Assembly (NCBI RefSeq): GCF_024169515.1
Contig: NZ_JAMKCQ010000001.1
Coordinates: 4,030,001 to 4,094,000, forward strand
DNA from: Erwinia aphidicola
GTDB taxonomy: Bacteria; Pseudomonadota; Gammaproteobacteria; Enterobacterales; Enterobacteriaceae
DNA: 64,000 nucleotides
Direction of reading: 5' to 3'
The translations under genes were made by a program, and so were the position numbers. Every line of letters starts with the position of its first letter. The first letter of the stretch is position 1. Shown here piece by piece: positions 13,419 to 27,361 of this stretch. The notes beneath the pieces were generated by a model, which was not told where the DNA came from, ran no database searches, and worked only from the letters and a program-made list of their open reading frames with translations.

Positions 13419-15311
13419 TTAATCCTGCCACACGGCATCACGCACATTGATAGCGCGCGGCAGTAATCCCAGCGCATAGAAGCGGTCGGCAATGGTTTGC
13501 TGCGCACGGATCACGCTCAGGTCCATGCGCTGCGTCTGGTGGCTGCGGCGCAGCAGAGCGTGCGATAGCGCCTCAGGTCCCAGCCCCAGTTCGGCGGCCA
13601 GCAGGGCGGTGGCCTCTGCGTGGTTAGCATCAATGAAGCGCCCGGTCTGCTCCAGCGCCCGTATCACGCTGTGCAGCAGGTCCGCCGAGTGTGCGGCAAA
13701 GTCACGATGCGCGAGGTAAAACTGATGATTGCTCACCCGGCCGCACCCGTCAGCAATCACTCTTAAGCAACCGCTCTGCTCGGCGTCGCTCAGCAGCGGG
13801 TCCCACATCATCCAGGCATCGACCGCGTGATAATCGCTGGGCGTCAGCGGATATTTTGGCGGTGCATAGAGCACGCGCACGTCGTTCAGCGTCATTCCGG
13901 CTTCATCCAGCATCTGCACCAGCAGATAGTGCACGTTAGATCCCTTATTCACTGCGATACGTTTGCCGCGCAGGTCGGCAAGCGTTTGAATCGGGCTGTC
14001 CTGCGCCACCAGCAGCGCCACGCTCTGAGGCGCGGCGGGTTCCCAGGCAACGTACAGCAGGGGATTGTTCTCGGCCTGGGCAAAGACCGGCGGCACTTCC
14101 CCGGTGGTGCCGAAATCAATCTCACGGCTGCTGAGTGCGTGCAGCAGCTGTGGTCCGGCGGGGAACTCGCTCCACAGCACGCTGATGCCCGTTCCGGCAA
14201 AGCTCGCCTCCAGGCTCTGCCGCGCTTTAAGAATGCCGAGGTTGCCAAATTTCTGGTAGCCAATGCGCAGTTCGCGATCGCCCGCAGGGCGCTGGGCAGT
14301 CTGGCGCGCATCGCCGCTCGCCAGACTGCGGCGCGCCTTGATCAGTCCAAGATGGCCAAGATGAGTGCGCAGCGTATTGCGGCTGACGCCCAGCAGCGTG
14401 GCGGCCTGGAGCTGATTTTCACCGCTCAGCTCAAAAGCATTGCGCACTAAAGCGTCGATCACCCGCTGGTAGATTGGTCCGCTCTCCTGCTGCAGCTGCT
14501 GGCGCAGAAACTGGTCCAGCGCCTGCTCACCCGCCGCGAAAGCTGGCCCTGGCGCGACCGGGTTGAGGCGCAGCTGCTGCGGAGCGATCAGCGGCTCGCG
14601 GCTCAGCAGCACCGCATTGTGCAGGGTATTTTCCAGCTCACGCACGTTGCCCGGCCACGCATACTCCATCAGCGCCGCAAGGCTGTCGTCGGTTAAACGC
14701 AGCTGCGGGCGCCCCAGGCGGCGGGCGTACAGCGTGAGAAAATGCTCGGCTAGCAGCGGGATATCTTCGCGGCGCTGGCGCAGCGGCGGCAGGGTGACCG
14801 CCGCCACATTGAGGCGATAAAACAGATCTTCGCGAAAGCGGCGTTCACGGATTGCCACCGCGAGATCCACGTGGGTGGCAGCGATCACTCGTACGTTGAC
14901 CTTTACCGGGCGGCGCGACCCGACTCGCGTCACTTCGCGCTCCTGCAGCACGCGCAGCAGCTTAACCTGCAGCGGCAGGCTCAGCTCGCCGATCTCATCC
15001 AGCAGCAGCGTGCCGCCCTCCGCCGCTTCAAACCAGCCCTGATGGCGTTCACCCGCGCCGGTAAACGCGCCTTTCTCATGGCCGAACAGCTCGGATTCCG
15101 CCAGGCTTTCGGTTAGCGCACCGCAGTTCACCGCAACAAAGGGCTGCGTCCGGCGCGGGCTGTGATGATGCAGATAGCGCGCCACCACCTCTTTGCCGGT
15201 GCCGGTCTCACCGACAATCAGCACGGTAGCATCGGTTGGCGCAAGGCGGTCCAGCACGCTCTGAAAAGCGAGGGAGGCAGGGTCAATCAGTAACGGGCCG
15301 GAATGCTGCAT
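13419..15311 (-). CDS. Sigma-54-dependent activator fused to an SsuA-like ligand-binding domain
   Basis: 630 residues starting at an ATG preceded by GGAGCA. Residues about 10-250 are an AAA+ enhancer-binding-protein module: Walker A GETGTGKE (34-41), the sigma-54 contact loop GAFTGA (81-86), Walker B TLLLDE (101-106) and the AWPGNVREL motif near 218. A Fis-type HTH follows ([19 protein letters not shown], about 301-319). From about 347 on ([16 protein letters not shown]) the protein is an aliphatic-sulfonate-binding protein fold like SsuA, lacking a signal peptide and thus cytoplasmic. There is no N-terminal sensor, so the C-terminal domain presumably senses a sulfonate or sulfur metabolite. 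It is divergent from the sulfur operon it probably activates; SfnR is the functional analogue in Pseudomonas. Confidence 0.9.
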
Positions 15312-15385
15312 AGTGTGCTCCTTATACTCAGAGCAGGCAGATTACCCTGGCGTACGCCAGCTAACGACCCGCTGGGGAGCCGCTT

Positions 15386-15402
15386 TGCTGCAAATGAAGC
15401 AG
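15386..15402. promoter_or_regulatory. Candidate activator site 1 (upstream activating sequence)
   Basis: TGCTGCAAATGAAGCAG matches site 2 in 16 of 17 positions. The two sites start 32 bp apart, about three helical turns, so a Fis-type dimer would sit on the same DNA face at both. They lie upstream of the -24/-12 promoter, as expected for a sigma-54 activator. Confidence 0.7.
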
Positions 15403-15417
15403 CCTGTGGTCAGTGAC

Positions 15418-15434
15418 TGCTGCAAATGCAGCAG
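15418..15434. promoter_or_regulatory. Candidate activator site 2 (upstream activating sequence)
   Basis: TGCTGCAAATGCAGCAG; with the preceding C it makes a perfect dyad CTGCTGC-AAAT-GCAGCAG. Its centre is about 74 bp upstream of the -24 element. Confidence 0.75.
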
Positions 15435-15497: not shown

Positions 15498-15513
15498 TGG
15501 CACGTTTCCTGCT
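15498..15513 (+). promoter_or_regulatory. Sigma-54 (-24/-12) promoter of the organosulfur operon
   Basis: TGGCACGTTTCCTGCT has the invariant GG (15499-15500) and GC (15511-15512) separated by exactly 10 nt and the consensus TGGCAC half. It lies about 70 nt before the SsuD start and directly opposite the gene for a sigma-54 activator. Confidence 0.88.
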
Positions 15514-15582: not shown

Positions 15583-16761
15583 ATGAGCGACTCAGCGCAG
15601 AAAAATATCAACGTATTCTGGTTTCTCCCGACCCACGGCGACGGGCGCTATCTTGGCACCACCGAGGGCGGGCGCGCCGTCGACCTGCCGTATCTACAGC
15701 AGGTCGCGCTGGCCGCTGATAACCTCGGCTATTACGGGGTGCTGATCCCGACGGGTAAAAGCTGCGAGGACTCCTGGCTGGTGGCTGCGGCGCTGGCACC
15801 GATCACCAAACGCCTGCGCTACCTGGTGGCGGTGCGCCCCGGACTGCAGCCGCCAAGCCTTGCGGCGCGCATGGCCGCCACGCTTGACCGTTTGTCAGAA
15901 GGGCGACTGCTGATCAATGTGGTGACCGGTGGCGACCCGGTGGAGAACAAAGGCGACGGTATTTTCCTCAGCCACGCCGAGCGCTATCAGGTGACCCGTG
16001 AGTTTCTCGAAGTCTATTCACGCCTGCTGGCGGGGGATAAGGTCGATTTTCACGGTGAACATATTCACGTTGAGGGGGCAGAAATTCTGTTCCCTCCGGT
16101 GCAGGAAAACGGCCCACCGCTCTATTTTGGCGGTTCATCCGATGAGGCGATAGACGTGGCCGCCAATCAGGTCGATACCTATCTCACCTGGGGTGAGCCG
16201 GTGGCTCAGGTCGCGGAAAAACTGGCGGTAGTGCGTGAACGCGCCGCGGCGCGCGGGCGCACGCTCGACTACGGTATTCGCCTGCATGTCATCGTGCGCG
16301 AAACCGAAGAGGAAGCCTGGGCCGCCGCCGACCGCCTGATCGCCCACGTTGACGATGACACTATCGCCGCCGCACAGAAGATTTTCTCGCGCATGGATTC
16401 CGCAGGCCAGGCGCGGATGAGCGCGCTGCACAGCGGTTCACGCGACGGGCTGCGCATCGGGCCAAACCTGTGGGCCGGTGTCGGGCTGGTGCGCGGGGGC
16501 GCGGGCACCGCGCTGGTTGGCAGCCCGCAGCAGGTGGCGGACCGCATTCGCGAATATCAGGAGCTGGGCATCCAGAACTTTATCCTGTCCGGCTACCCGC
16601 ATCTGGAAGAGGCGCACCGCTTTGCCGAGCTGGTGATGCCGCTGCTACCGCTGGCGAGCAATGGCGATAAAAAACAGCGCACGGTAAACACCGGGCCGTT
16701 TGGCGAAACCATCGGTGGCGATCTGCGCCCGAAAGCGCAAAAGCAAACCAGCGCAAGTTAA
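15583..16761 (+). CDS. ssuD: FMNH2-dependent alkanesulfonate monooxygenase
   Basis: 392 residues (E. coli SsuD 381). It desulfonates alkanesulfonates to aldehyde and sulfite in the cytoplasm using reduced FMN. The bacterial luciferase-like fold is evident from [39 protein letters not shown] and NVVTGGDP. The Cys of GKSCEDSW and the Arg/His pair of [11 protein letters not shown] correspond to SsuD active-site residues Cys54, Arg226 and His228. It is the first gene after the sigma-54 promoter. No flavin reductase (SsuE) is encoded nearby. A roughly 20-residue C-terminal extension is additional to the family length. Confidence 0.95.
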
Positions 16762-16774
16762 AGGGGGATTTTCC

Positions 16775-17869
16775 ATGAGTCAGTCAACGCCGATTAAATT
16801 TGCCTACTGGGTACCGAATGTTTCAGGTGGCCTGGTCATCAGTCATATCGCACAGCGCACCAGCTGGGATTTTGACTATAACCGCAAGCTCGCGCAGATT
16901 GCCGAGCAGGCTGGTTTCGAGTATGCGCTGACGCAGATCCGCTTTACCGCCGGATACGGCGCTGATAATCAGCATGAGTCGGTCAGTTTTTCCCAGGGCC
17001 TGTTGGGGGCCACCGAGAAGCTGAAGGTGATCGCCGCGCTGCTGCCAGGCCCCTGGAATCCAACGCTGGCGGCGAAACAGATCGCCACCATCAGCCACCT
17101 GTCGAATGCGCGCATCGCGGTGAATATCGTCAGTGGATGGTTTCGCGGCGAGTTCAAAGCGATTGGCGAGCCGTGGCTCGATCATGAAGAGCGCTATCTG
17201 CGATCCGAAGAGTTTATTCGCTGCCTGAAGGGCATCTGGCGCGAACCGACCTTTAACTTTGCCGGCGATTTCTACCGCTACCGCGACTACTCGCTGAAGC
17301 CAAAGCCACTGGACCCACAGCCGGAGATTTTCCAGGGCGGCAGCTCGCGTGCAGCGCGTGATATGGCCGCACGCGTCTCCGACTGGTACTTCACCAATGG
17401 CAATACCGTGGAAGGTATTCGCCAGCAGGTTGAAGATATCCGTCACAAAGCAGCAGCCAATCAGCATCAGGTAAAAATTGGCGTTAACGGTTTTGTTATC
17501 GCGCGTGACAGCGAGCAGGAAGCGCAACAGGTGCTACAGCAGATCCTCGACCACGCCAACCCTGATGCGGTAAAAGGCTTCCAGCATGAGGTTAAAAATG
17601 CCGGCAGCGCCTCGCCGGAAGGGGAAGGTAACTGGGCAAAATCCACGCTCGAGGATCTGGTGCAGTACAATGATGGTTTTAAAACTAACCTGATCGGTAC
17701 TCCGCAGCAGATTGCCGAACGTATTATGGCGCTAAAACAGGCCGGAGTGAGCCTGATGCTGCTGGGCTTCCTGCATTTCCAGGAAGAGGTCGAATTCTTT
17801 GGCCGTGAAGTGATCCCGCGGGTGCGCGAGCTGGAGCGGCAACAACAGCTGGAGTTGAGTCATGGCTGA
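16775..17869 (+). CDS. sfnG: FMNH2-dependent dimethylsulfone monooxygenase, SfnG family
   Basis: 364 residues from the ATG at 16775 (AAGGGGG ribosome binding site, 13 nt after the ssuD stop); the frame extends upstream into ssuD but that part is not needed. The N-terminus IKFAYWVPNVSGGLVISHIAQRT and the motifs ALTQIRFTAGYGA, LPGPWNPTLAAKQIATI, NIVSGWFRGEF, FQGGSSRAARDMAARVSDW closely follow Pseudomonas SfnG, which converts dimethylsulfone to methanesulfinate. Methanesulfonate arising from that product is an SsuD-type substrate, so the two genes form a logical pathway. Confidence 0.93.
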   Translation: MSQSTPIKFAYWVPNVSGGLVISHIAQRTSWDFDYNRKLAQIAEQAGFEYALTQIRFTAGYGADNQHESVSFSQGLLGATEKLKVIAALLPGPWNPTLAAKQIATISHLSNARIAVNIVSGWFRGEFKAIGEPWLDHEERYLRSEEFIRCLKGIWREPTFNFAGDFYRYRDYSLKPKPLDPQPEIFQGGSSRAARDMAARVSDWYFTNGNTVEGIRQQVEDIRHKAAANQHQVKIGVNGFVIARDSEQEAQQVLQQILDHANPDAVKGFQHEVKNAGSASPEGEGNWAKSTLEDLVQYNDGFKTNLIGTPQQIAERIMALKQAGVSLMLLGFLHFQEEVEFFGREVIPRVRELERQQQLELSHG

Positions 17870-19244
17870 GCGTCATATCGTTATCGTCGGCGGCGGGTTT
17901 ACCGGCACCGCCACGGCCATCCATCTGGCCGGGCTCGGTGACGCCGGGCTGACGGTAACGGTGATTGAGCCACGGCCGCAGCTGGCCTGCGGAGTGGCTT
18001 ACGGCACGCGCGACCCTGCACACCGCATCAACGTTCCGGCCGACCGCATGCAGCTCTCGGCGGCGCAACAGGGCGATTTTGACCGCTGGTTCCGCGCCTC
18101 GCAAGCGTTTGCGCAGGATGCCGATGCGCAGTGGCACGACGGTAAAGTTTACCCGCAGCGCGGGCAGTTTGCCGCCTGGGTTGCTGAGCAGTTCACCCAG
18201 GCACAGCAGAGCTCGGCGGTGACATTACGCCATATTTGCGGCCGGGCGGTGGCGCTGGAAGCGGGAAGCATTGTGACGGACGCGGGGCAGCGCGTGGCCG
18301 CCGATGACGTGGTGCTGGCGATCAGCCATCCACCGCCCGCGCTGCCGCGCCAGATTGCCGCAGCGCTGGAGGGGCACCCCGGCCTGATTGCTAACCCGTG
18401 GCGTGAGGGGGCGCTGAGCGCTATTGCGGCGGATGAGCGCATCGCGATTATCGGCAGCGGGCTGAGCATGTCGGATGTCGTGGCAACGTTACACCGTCAC
18501 GGGCATCGCGGCCCGGTCAGCGCCTTTTCACGCCGTGGCCTGCTGCCACGCCCAAATCTCAGCGGTGCTTATCAACCCACGCCGCTGGATTACCAGCAGC
18601 CGCAGGCCAGCACGGTGCTGGCGTGGCTGCGGCGTATTCGCCGCGAGATTGCGGCCAGCGGGCTGCCGTGGCAGCTGGTGCTCGACGATATTCGCCTGAA
18701 CGGCCAGCGCATCTGGCAGCAGCTGTCTCTTGACGAACAGCGCCGCTTCCTGCGCCATCTGCGCCCGTGGTGGGATGTGCACCGCTACCGCATCGCTCCT
18801 CAGGTCAGCCAGGTGCTGGAGCAGTGGCTGACTAGCGGGCAGCTGACGGTGAGTGCCGCCAGGCTGGGCGCGGTGCGGGCCGCCGGGCAGCAGATTGAGT
18901 TGACGCTCCAGCCGCGCAGAGCGCCGGCGCGGCAACTTACCGTTGACCGCGTAATTATTACCACCGGCCCGGCGCACGGCAGCCTGTTGAGCAGCGACGC
19001 GCTGCTGCATCAGTTAACTATCGCTGGCATCATCCAGCCCGATCCGCTGGCGCTGGGTATTGCGGTGAATGCCCTGTCGCAGACCCTTAACCGCAGCGGG
19101 CAAGCCAACCCGCATCTGTATGTCGCCGGGCCGGCTGCCCGTGGCCGCTTTGGCGAACTTATGGGGCTGCCGCAGGTGGCGGAGCATGCCGAAAGCGTGG
19201 CGCGCCAGCTGCTCGGCCTCGATGCGGAGCGATGTCCCGCCTGA
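17862..19244 (+). CDS. FAD/NAD(P)-binding oxidoreductase (NAD_binding_9 family)
   Basis: 460 residues; starts 8 nt inside the sfnG gene, implying translational coupling. The dinucleotide motif IVIVGGGFTGTATAIHLA binds FAD, EPRPQLACGVAYGTRDPAHRINVPA is the typical second element of this family, and IAIIGSGLSMSDVVATLHRHG is a second Rossmann motif. The family is poorly characterised. In this operon it could supply reducing equivalents or oxidise a sulfur intermediate, but that is an inference; it is not a classical FMN reductase of the SsuE or Fre type. Confidence 0.85.
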   Translation: MAERHIVIVGGGFTGTATAIHLAGLGDAGLTVTVIEPRPQLACGVAYGTRDPAHRINVPADRMQLSAAQQGDFDRWFRASQAFAQDADAQWHDGKVYPQRGQFAAWVAEQFTQAQQSSAVTLRHICGRAVALEAGSIVTDAGQRVAADDVVLAISHPPPALPRQIAAALEGHPGLIANPWREGALSAIAADERIAIIGSGLSMSDVVATLHRHGHRGPVSAFSRRGLLPRPNLSGAYQPTPLDYQQPQASTVLAWLRRIRREIAASGLPWQLVLDDIRLNGQRIWQQLSLDEQRRFLRHLRPWWDVHRYRIAPQVSQVLEQWLTSGQLTVSAARLGAVRAAGQQIELTLQPRRAPARQLTVDRVIITTGPAHGSLLSSDALLHQLTIAGIIQPDPLALGIAVNALSQTLNRSGQANPHLYVAGPAARGRFGELMGLPQVAEHAESVARQLLGLDAERCPA

Positions 19245-19331: not shown

Positions 19332-20741
19332 ATGTCTTCACAACGTGAAATTCGTCTTAACGCCTTTGATATGAACTGCGTGGGCCACCAGTCTCCGGGC
19401 CTGTGGGCGCATCCGCGCGACCGCTCCTGGCAGTATAAGGATCTGAGCTACTGGACCGAGCTGGCACGTCTGCTGGAGCGCGGCAAGTTCGACGGCCTGT
19501 TTATTGCCGATGTCCTTGGCGTCTACGACGTGCTGAACGGCGATAATGCCGCCGCCATCCGCAACGCTACCCAGGTGCCGGTTAACGATCCGCTGGCGCT
19601 GATCACCCCGATGGCGCTGGTGACCGAGCATCTCGGCTTTGGCCTTACCGCATCGCTGTCGTTTGAGCATCCTTACCCGTTTGCCCGCCGCATCTCCACC
19701 CTGGATCATCTGACCAAAGGGCGCATCGGCTGGAATATTGTCACCTCCTATCTGGAGAGCGGTGCGCGCAATATCGGCCACCAGGCGCAGACCGATCACG
19801 ATGCACGCTACGACTACGCCGATGAATATTTGCAGGTGGTGTACAAACTGCTGGAAGGCAGCTGGGAGGAGGGAGCCATCCTGCGCGATCGCCAGCGCCG
19901 CATCTTCAGCGACCCAACGAAAATCCATCCGATCAATCACCAGGGCACCTTCTTCCAGGTGCCGGGCATTCACCTGTGTGAACCGTCGCCGCAGCGCACG
20001 CCGGTGCTGTATCAGGCTGGAGCATCCAGCCGCGGCAAGCAGTTCGCCGCCGAGCACGCCGAGTGCGTATTTGTGGCCGCGCCGTCGAAAGTGCTGCTGA
20101 AGAAGACGGTCGCCGATATCCGCCGCCGCGCCGCAGAGGCCGGGCGCGATCCGCGCAGCATTCTGATCTTCAACCTGCAAACGGTAATCGTTGACGAAAC
20201 CGATAAAGCGGCGCAGGCGAAATGGCAGGAGTACAAAAGCTACGTCAGCTACGAAGGCGCGCTGGCGCTGATCTCCGGCTGGACCGGCATCGACTTCGGC
20301 CAGTATCAGCCGGACCAGGTGCTGAAACATCTGCACACCAACGCTATCCAGTCAGCGGTGGAAACTTTCTCCACCGCCGATCCAAATCGTCAGTGGACGG
20401 TGCAGGGGCTGGCGGACTGGGTGGGGATTGGCGGCTTTGGACCGCTGCTGGTCGGCAGTGCGCAGACCGTTGCAGACGAGCTGCAAAGCTGGGTCGAAGA
20501 GACGGATGTTGACGGCTTCAACCTCGCCTACGCGGTAACGCATGAAACCTTTAGCGACGTGGTGGAGCACCTGGTCCCGGAGCTGCAAAAGCGCGGGGTC
20601 TACAAACAGGATTATCAGGCGGGTACGCTGCGCGAGAAGCTGTTTAAGCAGGGGCCGCGCCTGCAGTATCCGCATCCGGGGGCCGGATACCGCCGCGCGG
20701 CCACCGCTGGGGTGCCCCATGCCGATGAGGTCACGCCATGA
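19332..20741 (+). CDS. NtaA/SnaA/DszA-type flavin-dependent monooxygenase
   Basis: 469 residues of the luciferase-like superfamily, matching the nitrilotriacetate monooxygenase A / DszA branch: NAFDMNCVGHQSPGLWAHP, GKFDGLFIADVLGVYD, TEHLGFGLTASLSFEHPYPFARRISTLDHLTKGRIGWNIVTSYL, and VLYQAGASSRGKQFAAEHAE. DszA oxidises dibenzothiophene sulfone and related enzymes act on other sulfones, so a sulfone or sulfonate substrate fits the operon. It needs FMNH2. An 87-nt gap separates it from the upstream gene; its stop overlaps the ABC ATPase start. Confidence 0.92.
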   Translation: MSSQREIRLNAFDMNCVGHQSPGLWAHPRDRSWQYKDLSYWTELARLLERGKFDGLFIADVLGVYDVLNGDNAAAIRNATQVPVNDPLALITPMALVTEHLGFGLTASLSFEHPYPFARRISTLDHLTKGRIGWNIVTSYLESGARNIGHQAQTDHDARYDYADEYLQVVYKLLEGSWEEGAILRDRQRRIFSDPTKIHPINHQGTFFQVPGIHLCEPSPQRTPVLYQAGASSRGKQFAAEHAECVFVAAPSKVLLKKTVADIRRRAAEAGRDPRSILIFNLQTVIVDETDKAAQAKWQEYKSYVSYEGALALISGWTGIDFGQYQPDQVLKHLHTNAIQSAVETFSTADPNRQWTVQGLADWVGIGGFGPLLVGSAQTVADELQSWVEETDVDGFNLAYAVTHETFSDVVEHLVPELQKRGVYKQDYQAGTLREKLFKQGPRLQYPHPGAGYRRAATAGVPHADEVTP

Positions 20742-21751
20742 TTGAAATTGACAGCCTGCGTAAACACTACCCGACGGCGGGCGGAAAGACGGTGGAGGTG
20801 CTGAAAGGCCTCTCTCTCACCGTGCCCGCAGGGTCGATTACCGCCGTAGTGGGGCCAAGCGGTGCCGGGAAATCGACGCTGGCGAAATGCATCAGCCTGC
20901 TGGAACGCCCCAGCTCCGGCAGCATCCGCGTTAACGGGGAAGATCTGTCGCGCCTGTCGGGAGAGGCACTGCGCCGTGAGCGACGCGCAATCGGCACGGT
21001 CTTTCAGTCTTCGGCGCTGCTGGCGCGTAAAACCGCCTGGGAAAATATCGCGCTACCGCTGCAGTGGCTGGGCGTGGTGCCGGGGCAGGTTAAGCAGCAC
21101 GTTGACCAGCTGCTCGACAGCGTTGGCCTGAGCGACAAAGCGGGCTATTACCCGGCGCAGCTCTCCGGCGGTCAGCGCCAGCGCGTCGGGATTGCCCGGG
21201 CGCTGGCGCTGAAGCCCTCGGTGCTGCTGGCGGACGAAGCCACCTCCGGGCTGGACCCGCAGGCGACGGCCTCCATCCTGCTGCTGTTGCAACAGCTACG
21301 GCAGCAGTTTGGCCTGGCGATTGTCCTGATCACCCATGAGATGGACGTGGTGCGCAGCACGGCGGATGCGGTGGCAGAGATCCGCGACGGTCAGCTGGTA
21401 CAGCAGGGCACGCTGCGCGACTTGCTCAGCACGCCAGGCTCGGCGCTGGGAGAGCAGCTGTTTCCACTGCGCCCACTTTCAGCGTCAGCCGACCTGCTGC
21501 TGCAGCTGACCTACGCCACGCCGCTGGCCACTGACTGGATCGGGCGGATCGGCCAGCAGTGTCACTGCCAGATTGATCTGCTGGCCGCGCATGTGGAAGA
21601 GGTTGGCGGGCAGCTGGCCGGGCGTATGCAGATTGGCGTGCGTTTCAATCAGCGCCCGCTGGAAGCCAGGGCGCTGATCGCGCAAATGGCCGAGCTGGGA
21701 ATTATTGCCCAGCTGATTGAGGCGCGTCCGCGCCTGCAGGAGGCCGGATGA
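20738..21751 (+). CDS. ABC transporter ATP-binding protein, MetN-like with NIL domain
   Basis: 337 residues, ATGA overlap with the upstream monooxygenase gene. Walker A GPSGAGKST, the Q-loop around VFQSSALL, signature LSGGQRQRVGIARAL, Walker B VLLADEATSGLDP and the H-loop LITHEMDVV are complete. The C-terminal segment after about 250 (LLQLTYATPLATDWIGRI...RMQIGVRF) resembles the NIL regulatory domain of MetN. Together with the next two genes it makes a MetNIQ-type importer. In this operon the cargo is more likely an organosulfur compound than methionine itself. Confidence 0.92.
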   Translation: MIEIDSLRKHYPTAGGKTVEVLKGLSLTVPAGSITAVVGPSGAGKSTLAKCISLLERPSSGSIRVNGEDLSRLSGEALRRERRAIGTVFQSSALLARKTAWENIALPLQWLGVVPGQVKQHVDQLLDSVGLSDKAGYYPAQLSGGQRQRVGIARALALKPSVLLADEATSGLDPQATASILLLLQQLRQQFGLAIVLITHEMDVVRSTADAVAEIRDGQLVQQGTLRDLLSTPGSALGEQLFPLRPLSASADLLLQLTYATPLATDWIGRIGQQCHCQIDLLAAHVEEVGGQLAGRMQIGVRFNQRPLEARALIAQMAELGIIAQLIEARPRLQEAG

Positions 21752-22452
21752 AAGCGCAGGATGTGATAAGCCAGGACACGCCATGGAGCCAGATACACCG
21801 GCTGATGCTGCCTGCTTACGGTGAAACCTGGCTGATGGTCGGTATTGTGATGCTGTTTGTGGTGTCGCTCGGCGGGCTGCTCGGCGTGGTGCTGTTTAAT
21901 ACCTCAGCGCGCGGGCTGTTTTCCCACCCGGCGGCCCATCGCAGCCTGAGCTGGCTGGTGAACATTGGGCGCTCGCTGCCGTTTCTGGTGCTGATGGCGG
22001 CGATTATCCCCTTCACCTTCTGGCTGACCGGCACCACCATTGGTATTCCGGCGGCGGTGATCCCGATGATCGTCGCCGGAACGCCATTTTTTGCCCGGCT
22101 GGTGGAGAACGCGCTGCGCGAGCTGCCGGCGGAAGTGACGGCGGTCGGGCTGGTGTCCGGCGGTTCGCGCTGGCAAATCATCTGCGGCGCGCAGCTCAGT
22201 GAGGCACTGCCGGCGATTGTAGCCGCCATCACGCTGAACCTGATTTCAATGATCGAATATTCGGCTATCGCCGGCACCATCGGCGCGGGCGGCATTGGTT
22301 ATCTGGCGGTGGTGTATGGCTATCAGCGTTTTGATAATCACATCATGATCGCCACCATTGTCGTGCTGATCGCCACTATTCAACTGATTCAACTGATTGG
22401 CGACCGCGTGGTTGCCAGACTTCAACACTCTCAGGGAACGCACACATCATGA
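21748..22452 (+). CDS. ABC transporter permease, MetI-like
   Basis: 234 residues, ATGA overlap with the ATPase gene. About five membrane helices; the segment RELPAEVTAVGLVSGGSRWQIICGAQLSEALPAI is the EAA loop that docks on the ATPase, and NLISMIEYSAIAGTIGAGGIGYLAVVYGYQRF is the conserved C-terminal region of MetI. It forms the inner-membrane channel of the MetNIQ-like importer. Confidence 0.93.
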   Translation: MKAQDVISQDTPWSQIHRLMLPAYGETWLMVGIVMLFVVSLGGLLGVVLFNTSARGLFSHPAAHRSLSWLVNIGRSLPFLVLMAAIIPFTFWLTGTTIGIPAAVIPMIVAGTPFFARLVENALRELPAEVTAVGLVSGGSRWQIICGAQLSEALPAIVAAITLNLISMIEYSAIAGTIGAGGIGYLAVVYGYQRFDNHIMIATIVVLIATIQLIQLIGDRVVARLQHSQGTHTS

Positions 22453-23324
22453 CGCAGCAAACTTTTGAACTGAAAAAGAAGAAAACCTGGCCGTGGCTGG
22501 TGGCCGTGGTGCTGATTGCGCTGATTGCGCTACTCGGCTGGCACTTCAGCCGCCAGCAGCAACATAGCGTGACCTTTGGCACCACGCTGAAGGTGCACTT
22601 CGAGCCGGCCATGGCGGGTGAACAGAAGCTGATCGAGTACGTGGCGCAGCATATTGCCCCGGACTACGGTATTCAGCTGGAAGCGGTGGGGTTGCAGGAT
22701 CCGGTGCAGGCCGACCGCGCCGTGGCGGAGGGGCAATATGCGGCCACGGTGTATCAACACCAGTGGTGGCTAAAGCAGGTGGTGGATGCCAATAAATTCG
22801 AACTCAGCTCCACGCTGCCGCTGTTCCAGTGGGCGTTTGGTATCTACTCGGACCGCTATAAGGCGATTGCCGATCTGCCCAACGGCGCAGAAATCGTGGT
22901 GCCAAACGACGGGGCGAACCAGGGGCAGGCGCTGTGGCTGCTGCAGCGCATTGGTCTGATTGGCCTCGATCCTAACGTTGAGCCGCGCACCGCCAAAATT
23001 AAAGATATTGTGAAAAACCCACATAACTTTAATTTTAAAGAGCTGGATTTATTAACCATGCCGCGTGCCTTAAATTCTGTCGATGCCGCAATCGGTTATG
23101 TTTCACAGTTTGATGCCGGTAAAGTCGGGCGTGATAAAGGCATATTATTCCCACCCGCGCCGCGTACCTTCGCCTCACAGTTAGTCATTGGTACTCCCTA
23201 TTTAAATGATGAGAATATTATCAAGTTAAAAAAAGCATTTGCCGATCCACGCGTGCAGAAGTGGCTTAAAGAGACTCAGGATCCGCAGGTGCAGGGCGTA
23301 TTAGTGCCGGTATCGGCAGATTAA
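22449..23324 (+). CDS. MetQ/NlpA-family substrate-binding protein with an N-terminal membrane anchor
   Basis: 291 residues, ATGA overlap with the permease gene. The mature part (VTFGTTLKVHFEPAMAGEQKLIEYVAQHIAPDYGIQLE) aligns with the MetQ family, which normally carries a lipobox cysteine. Here the N-terminus is KKKKTWPW followed by a hydrophobic stretch (about 12-32) with no cysteine and no clear signal-peptidase site, so the protein should stay tethered by a transmembrane helix. The ligand is presumably a sulfur compound. A strong terminator follows. Confidence 0.9.
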   Translation: MTQQTFELKKKKTWPWLVAVVLIALIALLGWHFSRQQQHSVTFGTTLKVHFEPAMAGEQKLIEYVAQHIAPDYGIQLEAVGLQDPVQADRAVAEGQYAATVYQHQWWLKQVVDANKFELSSTLPLFQWAFGIYSDRYKAIADLPNGAEIVVPNDGANQGQALWLLQRIGLIGLDPNVEPRTAKIKDIVKNPHNFNFKELDLLTMPRALNSVDAAIGYVSQFDAGKVGRDKGILFPPAPRTFASQLVIGTPYLNDENIIKLKKAFADPRVQKWLKETQDPQVQGVLVPVSAD

Positions 23325-23490: not shown

Positions 23491-24954
23491 ATGAGTACAT
23501 TAAATATTGACGATGGTGTTATTTCACCCCCCTCGTCCTCAACACCGGTGCGTTCCGTCAGTGATGTGGCGCAGTTAATTAACACCAGTACCAGCAAAAA
23601 CAGTTACGCCCGCTGGATTGTCTTTCTGGCACTCGGCGGGGTGTTTTTAGATGCCTACGATCTCACCACACTCTCATACGGTATTGATGATGTGGTTAAA
23701 GAGTTCGGCTTAACCCCGGCAATCACCGGGCTGGTCACCTCATCGATTATGATCGGCACCATCGTTGGCAACCTGCTGGGCGGCTGGCTGACCGATAAAT
23801 ATGGCCGCTATTCGGTATTTATGGCCGATATGCTGTTCTTTGTGGTCTCGGCGCTCGCCGCCGGACTGGCGCCAAACGTCTGGGTGCTGATCGGTGCGCG
23901 TTTCCTGATGGGGATCGGCGTGGGGATCGACCTGCCGGTGGCGATGGCTTATCTGGCTGAGTTCTCCAAATTTACCGGCAAGGGCAATAAAGCCGCACGT
24001 TTAGCCGCGTGGTGCCCGATGTGGTACGCGGCGTCGTCGGCCTGCTTCTTTATTATTTTCGCGCTGTATTTCCTGCTGCCGAAAGAGCACGCCGACTGGC
24101 TGTGGCGTGCCTCGCTGCTATTTGGCGCGGTGCCAGCCCTGCTGATTATTGCGGTGCGCAGCAAATTTATGAATGAGTCCCCGCTGTGGGCGGCGAACCA
24201 GGGCGATCTGGAAGGGGCGGCACGTATCCTGCGCGACTCTTACGGTATCAGCGCCCACGCGGCGGAAGCCCACGAACGCGAGCCGGTAAAAAAAGCGCCG
24301 CCGAAAGTCAGCTTCCGCGTGCTTTTTCATAAGCCGTATCGTGAACGTACTATTGTCACGGCGGTGATGAATATCTGTATCTCCTTCGAATACACCGCCA
24401 TCGCCTTCTTCCTGCCGTCGATCCTCGCGCAGTTCCTCGGCGCTGGCGTATTTGAAACTATCTCCGCTTCGCTGGGGCTTAATGCGCTGTTCGCCTTTAC
24501 CGGTGGACTGCTGGGGATGCGCCTGGCATGGAAATTCCCGTCGCGCCACGTGGCGATTGCCGGGTTCGCGCTGCAGTTTATTGCGCTAATCTCGCTGGCG
24601 CTGATTGGCCACCCAACCGCCACGCCTGGCGTGGTGTTTGCCATTCTGATGCTCGGTCTGTGGCTGTTTGCCGAAGGCTTCGGTCCCGGCGCGCAGATGA
24701 TGATCTACCCGGCGCTCTCTTATCCCACTCATATTCGTGCAACCGGCGTCGGTTTTGGCCGCTCGCTGTCGGGGGTTGGCAGCGCGCTGGCGCTGTTTAT
24801 CCTGCCAATTTTGCAGGCTGCCTACGGCACCAATATGTTCTGGATCGTCTCGCTGGCCGCGATTATCCCGATTATTTTCCTGCTGATTATCCGCTTTGAA
24901 CCGACCCGGCAGGATATTGACGACCAATCTGAAACCGGAGGATCCCATGTCTGA
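23491..24954 (+). CDS. MFS transporter (sugar/aromatic-acid porter type) in the sulfur cluster
   Basis: 487 residues, twelve predicted helices. Motifs: FLDAYDLTTLSYGIDDV in helix 1, GGWLTDKYGRYSVF as the loop 2-3 signature, and IGVGIDLPVAMAYLAEFS in helix 4. A hydrophilic N-terminal tail of about 40 residues precedes the first helix. It overlaps the next gene by 8 nt, so importer and oxidoreductase are probably co-translated. An organosulfur compound is the likely cargo from context only. Confidence 0.9.
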   Translation: MSTLNIDDGVISPPSSSTPVRSVSDVAQLINTSTSKNSYARWIVFLALGGVFLDAYDLTTLSYGIDDVVKEFGLTPAITGLVTSSIMIGTIVGNLLGGWLTDKYGRYSVFMADMLFFVVSALAAGLAPNVWVLIGARFLMGIGVGIDLPVAMAYLAEFSKFTGKGNKAARLAAWCPMWYAASSACFFIIFALYFLLPKEHADWLWRASLLFGAVPALLIIAVRSKFMNESPLWAANQGDLEGAARILRDSYGISAHAAEAHEREPVKKAPPKVSFRVLFHKPYRERTIVTAVMNICISFEYTAIAFFLPSILAQFLGAGVFETISASLGLNALFAFTGGLLGMRLAWKFPSRHVAIAGFALQFIALISLALIGHPTATPGVVFAILMLGLWLFAEGFGPGAQMMIYPALSYPTHIRATGVGFGRSLSGVGSALALFILPILQAAYGTNMFWIVSLAAIIPIIFLLIIRFEPTRQDIDDQSETGGSHV

Positions 24955-26152
24955 TATTCACCCTGACTATGCCGCGCTGGCGGCAGCCTTTCGCCCCATT
25001 TTCGCGCGTATTGCCGAGGGCGCCGTAGAGCGTGAAACCACGCGCACGCTGCCCACGGAACCGATCCGCTGGCTGAAAGAGGCCGGATTTGGCACCCTGC
25101 GCATTCCGCAACAGCAGGGCGGATTCGGCGCCACGCTGCCGCAGCTGTTCCAGCTGCTGACGGAGCTGGCCGAAGCCGACTCAAATCTGCCGCAGGCGCT
25201 GCGCGCGCATTTTGCCTTTGTCGAAGACCGCCTGAATCAGCCAGATAGCGCGCAGCGGCAGAGCTGGTTCCGCCGTTTTGCCGATGGCGAACTGGTGGGC
25301 AGCGGCTGGACTGAAATCGGCACTGTTAAGCTGGGCGAGGTGATCACCAAAGTCAGCCCAGTGGAAAACGGCTGGCAGCTCGACGGGGAGAAGTTCTACA
25401 GCACCGGATCACTGTATGCCGACTGGATCGATGTCTACGCTCAGCGCAGCGATAACGGCCGTGATGTGATTGCGCTGGTGAATACCCATCAGGCGGGAGT
25501 GGAGCGTGATGATGACTGGGATGGCTTCGGGCAGCGTCTGACCGGCAGCGGCAGCACGCGCTTCCGTCAGGCGCGGGTGGAGCAGGCGCACGTATTTGAT
25601 TTCAGCGAGCGCTTCCGCTATCAGACCGCGTTCTACCAGCACGTGTTACTGGCAACGCTGGCCGGTATCGGCAGGGCGGTGAAGCGTGATGCCGCGGCGG
25701 GAGTGGCAAACCGCACGCGCACCTACAGCCACGGCAATGCCGGACGGGTCAAAAATGATGCGCAGGTGTTGCAGGTGGTGGGGCAGATATCCAGCTGGGC
25801 GTGGGCGGTGGAAGCCACGGTACAGCGCGCCGCCCACTCGCTGCAGCTGGCTTATGAGCTGCACAACAGCGGGGATGAAGCGCGCATTCAGCAGGCGAAC
25901 GTCCTGGCCGAGCTGGAATCGGCGCAGGCGCAGGTGGTGGCGAGCGAGCTGGTGCCGCGTGCTGCCAGCGAGTTGTTTAATGCGCTCGGCGCATCGGATA
26001 CCCGCGTCAGCAAGGCGCTGGATCGCCACTGGCGCAATGCCCGCACGGTAGCCTCACATAATCCGGTGATTTATAAGATCCGCAATGTCGGGGACTGGGA
26101 AGTCAACGGCAAAGAGCCGACGTTTATCTGGCAGATTGGTAACGGGGAATAA
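24947..26152 (+). CDS. Acyl-CoA-dehydrogenase-fold flavin monooxygenase (DszC/SfnB-like)
   Basis: 401 residues from the ATG at 24947 with GGAGG upstream, inside the end of the MFS gene; the earlier in-frame ATG would put most of the extension in the transporter gene. Domains follow the acyl-CoA dehydrogenase plan: an N-terminal helical domain (RWLKEAGFGTLRIPQQQGGFGATLPQL), a beta domain (GSGWTEIG, GEKFYSTGSLYADWI) and a C-terminal helical bundle. The catalytic Glu of true acyl-CoA dehydrogenases is not evident. DszC (dibenzothiophene monooxygenase) and the sulfur-acquisition protein SfnB belong to this group, so oxidation of a thioether or sulfoxide is plausible. Confidence 0.88.
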   Translation: MSDIHPDYAALAAAFRPIFARIAEGAVERETTRTLPTEPIRWLKEAGFGTLRIPQQQGGFGATLPQLFQLLTELAEADSNLPQALRAHFAFVEDRLNQPDSAQRQSWFRRFADGELVGSGWTEIGTVKLGEVITKVSPVENGWQLDGEKFYSTGSLYADWIDVYAQRSDNGRDVIALVNTHQAGVERDDDWDGFGQRLTGSGSTRFRQARVEQAHVFDFSERFRYQTAFYQHVLLATLAGIGRAVKRDAAAGVANRTRTYSHGNAGRVKNDAQVLQVVGQISSWAWAVEATVQRAAHSLQLAYELHNSGDEARIQQANVLAELESAQAQVVASELVPRAASELFNALGASDTRVSKALDRHWRNARTVASHNPVIYKIRNVGDWEVNGKEPTFIWQIGNGE

Positions 26153-26222: not shown

Positions 26223-27170
26223 CTATTTATCCAGCGACCAGGTCGCGGAGCTGACGTTCACTTTGACCGGCAGCAGGCCGATTTGGCTGAATTTATCCGC
26301 CAGTGCCTGCTGCTCTTTAAACACCGCCGGGGTCATTCGCTCGGCGCCATAAGGCATTCTCGCCAGCGCCCGCTGCCAGATAGGCTGCGGCAGGCCGGTC
26401 GAAGTAGCGAGAATTTTCGCCGCATCCTCAGGATGTTTATTCGCCCAGTCGCTCAACGTTCCCAGCTCATCCACGACCTGCTTCGCCGTCTGCGGGTAGG
26501 TATCAGCAAACTTGCGGCTGGCGAGATAGAAGGTGTAGTGCGGCACCAGCCCTTCGGCATTTTTCACCAGCCGCGCTTTGGCGTTGGTTTCCACTTCCGC
26601 GTAGTACGGGTCCCATATCACCCATGCATCGACCGCACCGCGCTGGAAGGCGGCTCGCGCATCGGCGGGCGGCAGGTAAACCGGCGTAATGTCTTTGTAG
26701 CTCAGCCCGGCATTCTCCAGCGCGCTGACCAGCAGATAGTTCACGTCAGAGCCTTTGTTCAGCGCGACGCGCTTGCCTTTCAGATCGGCGACGGTTTTGA
26801 TGGTGGAATTTTCAGGCACCACAATGGCTTCGGTTTTTGGGTTAGCCGGAGAGTGGGCCAGGTAGACCAGATCGGCCTGCGCCGCCTGGGCGAAAGTCGG
26901 TGGCGCATCGCCCGTTGCCGCCAGGTCGATACTGCCGACGTTCAGCCCTTCCAGCATTTGTGGCCCGGCGGGAAACTCGACCCAGCGCACGGCGATACCC
27001 TGCTTTTTGAACTGCTCATCCAGCGTGCCGCGATACTTCAGCAGCGCAAAAATATTGGCTTTCTGATAGCCGATATTGACGGTTTTCGGTGTGTTTTCGG
27101 CGGCATTGCCAGCAAAGGTGCTGCCGATGGTCATTGCGCCCAGCAGTGCGCTGAATAGCGTTTTTTTCAT
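26223..27170 (-). CDS. ssuA: Periplasmic aliphatic-sulfonate binding protein (SsuA-like), orphan
   Basis: 315 residues from the ATG at 27170 with GGGGATA upstream; a longer frame reaches 27311 but lacks a good start. A signal peptide ends near TFAGNAAE. The mature part TVNIGYQKANIFALLKYRGTLDEQF, EFPAGPQMLEGLNVGSIDLAATGDAPPTFAQA and DLKGKRVALNKGSDVNYLLV follows SsuA. It is clearly homologous to the C-terminal half of the sigma-54 regulator 12 kb away. No SsuB or SsuC gene is in the window, so partner membrane components must lie elsewhere or it works with another transporter. Confidence 0.92.
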   Translation of the reverse strand: MKKTLFSALLGAMTIGSTFAGNAAENTPKTVNIGYQKANIFALLKYRGTLDEQFKKQGIAVRWVEFPAGPQMLEGLNVGSIDLAATGDAPPTFAQAAQADLVYLAHSPANPKTEAIVVPENSTIKTVADLKGKRVALNKGSDVNYLLVSALENAGLSYKDITPVYLPPADARAAFQRGAVDAWVIWDPYYAEVETNAKARLVKNAEGLVPHYTFYLASRKFADTYPQTAKQVVDELGTLSDWANKHPEDAAKILATSTGLPQPIWQRALARMPYGAERMTPAVFKEQQALADKFSQIGLLPVKVNVSSATWSLDK

Positions 27171-27282
27171 GTTATATCCCCTGGTAATTAATCCGCTGGG
27201 AAAAACATAACAAAATGGCAGAAGGGGGCTTAACGAGTTGATCTGATAACGATATGCACAGAATGGATAACGCCTCAGCGCT

Positions 27283-27361
27283 GTGGCTGACCTTCTGTTC
27301 CGGTCAGCCATGAGTTCAGTTCGGCCCTCGTAGTGGCTGACCCTCTGTTCCGGTCAGCCAT
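27283..27361. repeat. Direct pair of TGGCTGACC palindromes
   Basis: Two copies of TGGCTGACC-N9-GGTCAGCCA (27284-27310 and 27334-27360) spaced 50 bp apart lie between the divergent-tail ssuA and aldA genes. The loops contain CTTCTGTTCC-like sequence. They belong to the same structural class as the other gene-end palindromes. Confidence 0.75.

Follow-up and report, generated by a model that had tools for sequence, protein, structure and literature searches.

The usual control element of a sigma-54 activator is a domain in front of its AAA+ module. SfnR is the sigma-54 activator of the dimethylsulfone genes in Pseudomonas and is reportedly CysB-regulated, to go by the title of Endoh's 2003 paper. 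It consists of an AAA+ module and a Fis-type helix-turn-helix (HTH) without an N-terminal sensor. The protein described here has the same organization but, unlike SfnR, runs on for about 300 residues past the HTH, into a substrate-binding protein (SBP) domain of the SsuA type. Among the fold matches of the predicted model of this domain are the structures 9uai, 9uak and 8wm7, which by their entry titles are NrtC/CmpC, with a regulatory C-terminal domain. NrtC/CmpC likewise carry an SBP-like domain C-terminal to a cytoplasmic ATPase, but theirs is the ATPase of an ABC transporter and not an AAA+ transcription activator.

A second parallel is NasS, an NrtA-like SBP without a signal sequence and predicted to be cytoplasmic, which holds the RNA-binding regulator NasT and has nitrate as its signal (PMC3795266). 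NasS resembles the fused domain in being a transport-type SBP that lacks a signal sequence, and it senses an anion for an assimilation operon; it differs in being a separate protein that acts on an ANTAR-type RNA-binding regulator with nitrate or nitrite as ligand, whereas the domain studied here is on the same chain as the AAA+ module. The idea of a cytoplasmic SBP sensor thus has precedents in NasS and in the C-terminal domain of NrtC/CmpC, neither of which is a sigma-54 activator. SsuA itself has in common with the fused domain the whole SBP fold, a TIGR01728 score above the cut-off and four contact residues; the fused domain differs in lacking a signal peptide, in standing behind an HTH and in a changed LxPADARAAF stretch. 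In open-licence PMC, a scope that leaves out most subscription journals, no title or beginning of an abstract among the matches listed describes the fusion, and in the main text of the sigma-54 survey PMC3162934 a term search found none of the words sulfonate, SfnR, substrate-binding and SBP.

Architecture and distribution of the fusion gene

The gene lies in a 64 kb stretch of DNA (hereafter the window). It opens with an ATG at 15311 and reads on the minus strand to 13419 with zero internal stops. The coordinates of all features are collected in Table 1.

Table 1. Positions of the fusion gene, its domains and the neighbouring features in the 64 kb window.
Feature	Position	Strand	Basis
Fusion gene, 630 aa: AAA+ sigma-54 activator, Fis-type HTH, linker, SsuA-type SBP	13419..15311	-	Domain models and orthologues
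AAA+ sigma-54 activator module, residues 1-248, Walker motif	14568..15311	-	Pfam, predicted model, fold match
Fis-type HTH, about residues 258-325	14337..14540	-	NtrC-type models, motif in 52/52
Variable linker, HTH to SBP	14277..14336	-	Alignment of fused genes
SsuA-type sulfonate-binding domain, residues 346-629, no signal peptide	13425..14276	-	TIGR01728, PDB matches, fold, contacts
Upstream palindrome 1 (TTGCTGCAAATGAAGCAG), probable activator site	15385..15402	.	Conserved
Upstream palindrome 2 (CTGCTGCAAATGCAGCAG), probable activator site	15417..15434	.	Conserved
Putative sigma-54 -24/-12 promoter TGGCACGTTTCCTGCT facing ssuD	15498..15513	+	Pattern match, sequence only
Conserved ssuD leader, boxes TTATAACC and GTTATATAGGAAA	15520..15576	+	Both boxes in 53/53 loci
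ssuD, FMNH2-dependent alkanesulfonate monooxygenase, first gene of divergent operon	15583..16761	+	TIGR03565, 611 bits (cut-off 518)
sfnG, dimethylsulfone monooxygenase	16775..17869	+	TIGR04021, 596 bits (cut-off 383)
FAD/NAD(P)-binding protein, in most loci of the operon	17862..19244	+	PF13454
NtaA/DmoA-family FMN monooxygenase	19332..20741	+	TIGR03860, 570 bits (cut-off 280)
MetNIQ-like ABC transporter genes (MetN/MetI/MetQ-like)	20738..23324	+	Domain models; in part of the loci
MFS transporter and SfnB-like flavin oxidoreductase	23491..26152	+	Domain models
SsuA-like protein, signal-peptide-like N-terminus	26223..27173	-	Homology to fused domain

An initial sequence-only reading had described an AAA+ sigma-54 activator with an intact GAFTGA loop, a Fis HTH and, behind the HTH and not before the AAA+ module, a complete SsuA-like domain lacking a signal peptide. 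This architecture is borne out, and the three Pfam models named in that reading (Sigma54_activat, HTH_8 and NMT1) are all recovered, HTH_8 below its cut-off. Sigma54_activat (PF00158) matches residues 17-172 with E 1.8e-69 and 233 bits against a cut-off of 20.2, followed by AAA_lid_14 at residues 178-248. The GAFTGA loop is unaltered in 49 of the 52 fusions, the window protein among them, and reads GSFTGA or GAFSGA in the other three. Neither a receiver nor a GAF domain precedes the AAA+ module, the best fold match of which is the AAA+ domain of FlrC (PDB entry 6luf). The HTH_8 match is weak (E 0.02, 15.1 bits, cut-off 22); the HTH is supported by NtrC-type NCBIfam models that extend through it to residue 317-323, by confident helices in the full-length predicted model and by a motif, written from these same sequences, that is present in 52/52 orthologues. 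From the end of this motif to the first SBP strand the linker spans 22-31 residues, most commonly 29.

For the C-terminal half, NMT1 matches residues 372-560 (E 1.8e-9) and the NCBIfam model TIGR01728 (SsuA_fam) covers residues 348-629 with 181.7 bits, above its cut-off of 163.5, while the narrower aliphatic-sulfonate model NF008588 gives 243.8 bits, under its cut-off of 299. Sequence matches in the PDB are 3e4r and 2x26. The homology to the SsuA-like protein at 26223-27170 noticed at the outset is confirmed by 39% identity over residues 346-629 (E 5.5e-64). The open reading frame of that protein (26223-27311) opens at 27311, with a likely start methionine at 27173, close to the end first given. 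Chance similarity of the C-terminal half is ruled out by the SsuA_fam score, the PDB sequence matches and the fold match.

Because the chain begins directly with the AAA+ module, both a signal peptide and an N-terminal sensor are absent. The SBP domain is not placed for periplasmic export as SsuA is, since it begins at residue 346, after the AAA+ module and the HTH, all in one open frame. No long hydrophobic stretch is found in the protein, the peak 19-residue hydropathy being 1.36.

We looked for a frameshift, an assembly error or an artefact unique to this genome and found none. The window genome (4.93 Mb in three contigs) shows no sign of an assembly error at the fusion gene, and an artefact is ruled out because the same open frame recurs, at full length, in dozens of genomes. 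Within the genus 18 of 35 genomes carry a full-length fusion (74-88% identity), a count from which G001, where the contig ends within the gene, and G022, where the gene is broken, were kept out. The family survey covered 392 genomes including that of the window and gave 50 matches at E 1e-90 or better; 46 of these are full length, from 20 genera, and the remainder comprise two partial matches (G022 and G372, the latter covering residues 4-262 only and counted outside the full-length set) and two genomes with an unfused activator (G168 and G404). The sole full-length copy in a class sample of 369 genomes is the window's own, and the three in a phylum sample of 398 genomes all fall within the same family, so that the survey of this architecture, which the sequence-only reading had proposed, finds it at full length nowhere outside the family in these wider samples. 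In E. coli, blastn gave 0/5426 genomes with a place covering 80% of the gene.

Named carriers include Pantoea plasmids, Raoultella, Klebsiella and Chimaeribacter, and a record labelled Pseudomonas was counted among them by record name alone. The gene is easily overlooked because public records name it either a sigma-54-dependent Fis family regulator or an aliphatic sulfonate ABC transporter substrate-binding protein. Across the genus and family surveys 62 genomes have the full-length gene (window included), 49 of which were examined in detail. The 52 fused genes analysed below are those of the window and of 48 other genomes together with three loci (L038, L040 and L041) that may be from the same strains as genomes already in the set.

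The putative ligand pocket, surface and ancestry of the fused domain

In SsuA from X. citri Gln36 holds the sulfonate together with the main chain of Gly68, Gly86 and Ser141 and the hydroxyl of Ser141, and Trp185 closely contacts the ligand (PMC3839906). These five residues align to Gln353, Gly386, Gly404, Asn459 and Trp500 of the fusion protein. The alignment consists of 52 fused, 30 ssuA2-type and 30 other rows, the genome's own ssuA and seven distant SBPs. Gln353, Gly386, Gly404 and Trp500 are invariant in 52/52 fusions. Position 459, equivalent to Ser141, is Asn in 52/52 fusions and also in 12 of the 30 other SsuA-like rows.

A total of 38 columns are conserved across both the fused and the transport-type sets. 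The latter comprises 61 rows, labelled by similarity and with the seven distant SBPs left out, among which six loci are doubled (L236/L256, and L254, L257, L258, L268 and L269 repeating ssuA2 rows). The LxPADARAAF stretch of these 61 rows is altered in the fusions (residues 483-492): Arg is replaced by Leu at 489 and Ala by Pro at 488 in 52/52, and Ala491 stays in ten. Glu391 and Glu431 are likewise altered positions. Conversely, Arg346, Met501, Glu574, His591 and Arg610 are invariant or nearly so in the fusions only. The altered positions we read as the loss of what would be the transporter-facing surface, with the pocket kept.

In seven comparisons dN/dS is 0.055-0.113 for the SBP part and 0.040-0.113 for the AAA+ part, values that are rough because synonymous change (0.8-2.1) is near saturation; one comparison for the HTH has no defined value. 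By these ratios purifying selection acts on the SBP half. Five models of the isolated domain have a mean pLDDT of 77.8, 77.2, 64.0, 50.2 and 49.1, and the isolated SBP model superposes on 3ksj, an SsuA with bound sulfonate buffer, with a TM score of 0.86. In the full-length model the AAA+ module (pLDDT mostly >90) and the HTH are confident and the SBP domain is of low confidence; the best 50 matches of a fold search with this model include AAA+ activators and no SBP. From its sequence and the isolated models, the SBP domain looks functional.

In a tree built with identical rows dropped, 21 fused SBPs form one clade (100/100) inside the SsuA family. This tree supports no particular sister group for the clade, and the neighbouring ssuA-like gene is at most a possible source of the fused domain. 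The fused activator parts and one unfused protein (L215, genome G168) also form one clade (100/100), apart from nine unfused homologues that share 47-55% identity over about residues 7-338. Several of these nine sit near ssuD, sfnG or sfnB homologues, and they are called SfnR-type by similarity and by neighbours, the characterized SfnR lying outside the comparison. The claim that SfnR-type regulators lack the SBP domain holds for these nine, whose chains end 2-50 residues past the aligned HTH and which a 100/100 branch separates from the fusions. The unfused clade member in G168 keeps the sigma-54 site (one mismatch); searches of that genome for ssuD at E 1e-60 and for SsuA at E 1e-35 gave no match. 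G168 is at most a possible pre-fusion state, with the fused rows forming one group without it in 8% of bootstrap trees.

The ssuD promoter and the divergent operon

The divergent neighbour of the fusion gene is ssuD in 52/52 loci, with a gap of roughly 270-350 bp. Within this gap, TGGCACGTTTCCTGCT is the sole site in the 64 kb window within one mismatch of TGGCACN5TTGCW (GG and GC held fixed). A candidate -24/-12 site directed towards ssuD is present in 52/52 fused loci, with one mismatch in 33 and two in 19. Upstream of it lie two palindromes of the form YTGYTGCAWWTGCARCAR, which start about 112 bp (palindrome 1) and 80 bp (palindrome 2) before the -24 element. At each position 49/52 loci are within three mismatches of the consensus; 3/52 exceed this, the worst with five and ten. 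Shifted control positions have 5 to 14 mismatches. The spacing and this control carry more weight than the counts because the consensus was written from these same loci. Going by what is known of the family, the palindromes are probable binding sites of the fusion regulator.

Three places in the whole window genome are within one mismatch of TGCTGCAWWTGCAGCA, against none for the reversed-pattern control. Two of the three are at this locus, palindrome 2 being the only perfect match, and on this count the regulator looks dedicated to the ssuD promoter alone. Putative control of the operon by the fusion protein is well supported by this anatomy, and from knowledge of the family we infer that activation at the ssuD promoter would be ATP-driven.

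Both leader boxes are conserved in all 53 leader loci (the fused loci and unfused L215); the expected start site is close to TTATAACC, and GTTATATAGGAAA covers the likely ribosome site. They are possibly the site of a second regulator or a weak hairpin: folded as RNA, the inverted repeat of the leader has a consensus energy of only -0.22, which 0/100 column shuffles reached. The box pair occurs once in the genome, a count that is uninformative because the reversed-pattern control also occurs once. No RNA family reached its gathering score in window positions 8000-29500.

Beyond ssuD the operon continues with sfnG (in part of the fused loci and missing from many), the FAD/NAD(P)-binding protein, the NtaA/DmoA-type monooxygenase, often the metNIQ-like genes, the MFS transporter and the SfnB-like protein; a few fused loci retain little past ssuD. 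Because the SfnB-like protein (24896-26152) scores 266 bits on the SfnB model, under the cut-off of 431, it may be a different acyl-CoA-dehydrogenase-like monooxygenase. The FAD/NAD(P)-binding protein is 49-79% identical to its orthologues among fused loci, the corresponding ranges being 76-92% for ssuD and 84-94% for the LLM monooxygenase. The MetNIQ-like ABC genes sit inside a sulfur operon, and only in part of the loci. Some 650 kb away in the window genome is a separate cluster of SsuA, an SsuD-like protein, a permease and an ATPase, of which SsuA is a search match and the other three are named from order and sequence likeness.

Near the fusion gene on plasmid pPag1 of Pantoea vagans C9-1 (L283) is a gene with the annotation glutathione-independent formaldehyde dehydrogenase; PMC8234197 presumes that the methyl groups from dimethylsulfone cleavage end as formaldehyde. 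A scan of viral contigs, used only to deepen an alignment, gave one ssuA-like locus (L282, IMGVR_UViG_3300012095_000013) with a gene 81% identical to that of the window, perhaps host sequence in a viral bin.

Three genomes, each a single case, depart from the common arrangement. One is G168, described above. G022 has a broken fusion gene and no ssuD beside it. G027 (L281, contig 6) has no fusion, and an ssuA-like gene is the direct divergent neighbour of its ssuD (87% identical); no -24/-12 site came up at this ssuD locus in a pattern scan. Among the 15 same-genus genomes without the fusion, an ssuD-like match at E 1e-60 is present in 12; that of G027 alone is of the cluster type, the other matches being at most 67% identical. 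G026, G007 and G029 have no ssuD-like match at E 1e-60.

Proposed function and its alternatives

We consider it probable that the protein senses sulfonate in the cytoplasm as a one-component system and, as a sigma-54 activator, drives the divergent ssuD operon. The suggestion in the sequence-only reading that a transport receptor was recruited as a cytoplasmic sensor, here a candidate one, gains support from the missing export signal, the four contacts kept in 52/52, the low dN/dS and the SsuA-like model, and further from the changed LxPADARAAF stretch and the linkage to ssuD and a sigma-54 promoter. G168, where the activator is unfused and both ssuD and SsuA are missing, also speaks for a sensor. 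Against it stand the replacement of Ser141 by Asn459, the presence of ssuD without the regulator in G027 and the low confidence of the SBP domain in the full-length model.

A sulfonate would enter the cytoplasm through an SsuABC-type or other transporter, and the C-terminal SsuA-type domain would bind alkanesulfonate there and close around it. The closed SBP would free the AAA+/HTH part for assembly or for contact with sigma-54. With the Fis-type HTH bound to the two palindromes, whose starts precede the -24 element by about 80 and 112 bp, the AAA+ ring would open the sigma-54 promoter complex at ssuD, and the ssuD-(sfnG)-FAD-LLM-(metNIQ)-MFS-sfnB operon would be made only with sulfonate present. 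The identity of the ligand, and that its binding activates rather than represses, we infer indirectly.

The opposite sign is conceivable: the ligand of the SBP domain could be a preferred sulfur source or an oxyanion product, such as sulfite, sulfate or a related anion, and its binding would shut the activator off when sulfur is plentiful, with sulfonate not the signal. Pathways of this type in pseudomonads answer to sulfate starvation, and the Asn at position 459 could alter the ligand. Such a negative sensor is nevertheless unlikely, as all 52 fusions keep the four contacts, the Trp near the organic part of the ligand among them, and the fused domain accompanies ssuD, which encodes a sulfonate enzyme. 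Moreover, X. citri SsuA was not stabilized by sulfate, thiosulfate or taurine (PMC3839906).

A further alternative keeps the mechanism and changes the signal to another organosulfur compound of the pathway, such as methanesulfinate, dimethylsulfone or a plant sulfonate. The sfnG gene in part of the loci and the NtaA/DmoA-type monooxygenase in the operon would fit, but with ssuD in 52/52 and sfnG missing from many fused loci it is the SsuD substrate that is indicated as the signal. Other compounds are highly improbable. Very unlikely, too, is a purely structural or docking role, in which the SBP domain would serve oligomerization or hold a partner such as the monooxygenase, having been fused from a tandem ebp-ssuA order and having lost ligand binding. 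A read-through fusion is easy to picture because several loci (e.g. L170, L176, L177, L180 and L185 to L189) have an ssuA-like gene immediately following the fusion gene and on its strand, and the fusion-specific residues Arg346, Met501, Glu574, His591 and Arg610 could form a new interface. The contact residues, however, stay invariant in 52/52 while other stretches change, and the dN/dS of the SBP part is low.

Returning to the sulfonate sensor, we lean towards the fuller picture in which the sensor behind the HTH is a complete receptor of transport origin that closes on sulfonate in the cytoplasm and thereby switches the AAA+ ring. The fusion gene would then amount to a sulfonate-responsive system of one gene and one promoter, present in about 20 genera of a single enterobacterial family under two unrelated database names. 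If this is correct, it would represent a new mode of control for sigma-54 activators, with the sensor located behind the DNA-binding domain, and the switching between domains could be studied with a good template because the SBP family has solved ligand-bound structures. It would also offer a ready sulfonate biosensor, acting on one promoter as far as the palindromes tell, and would explain how these bacteria sense organosulfonates directly.
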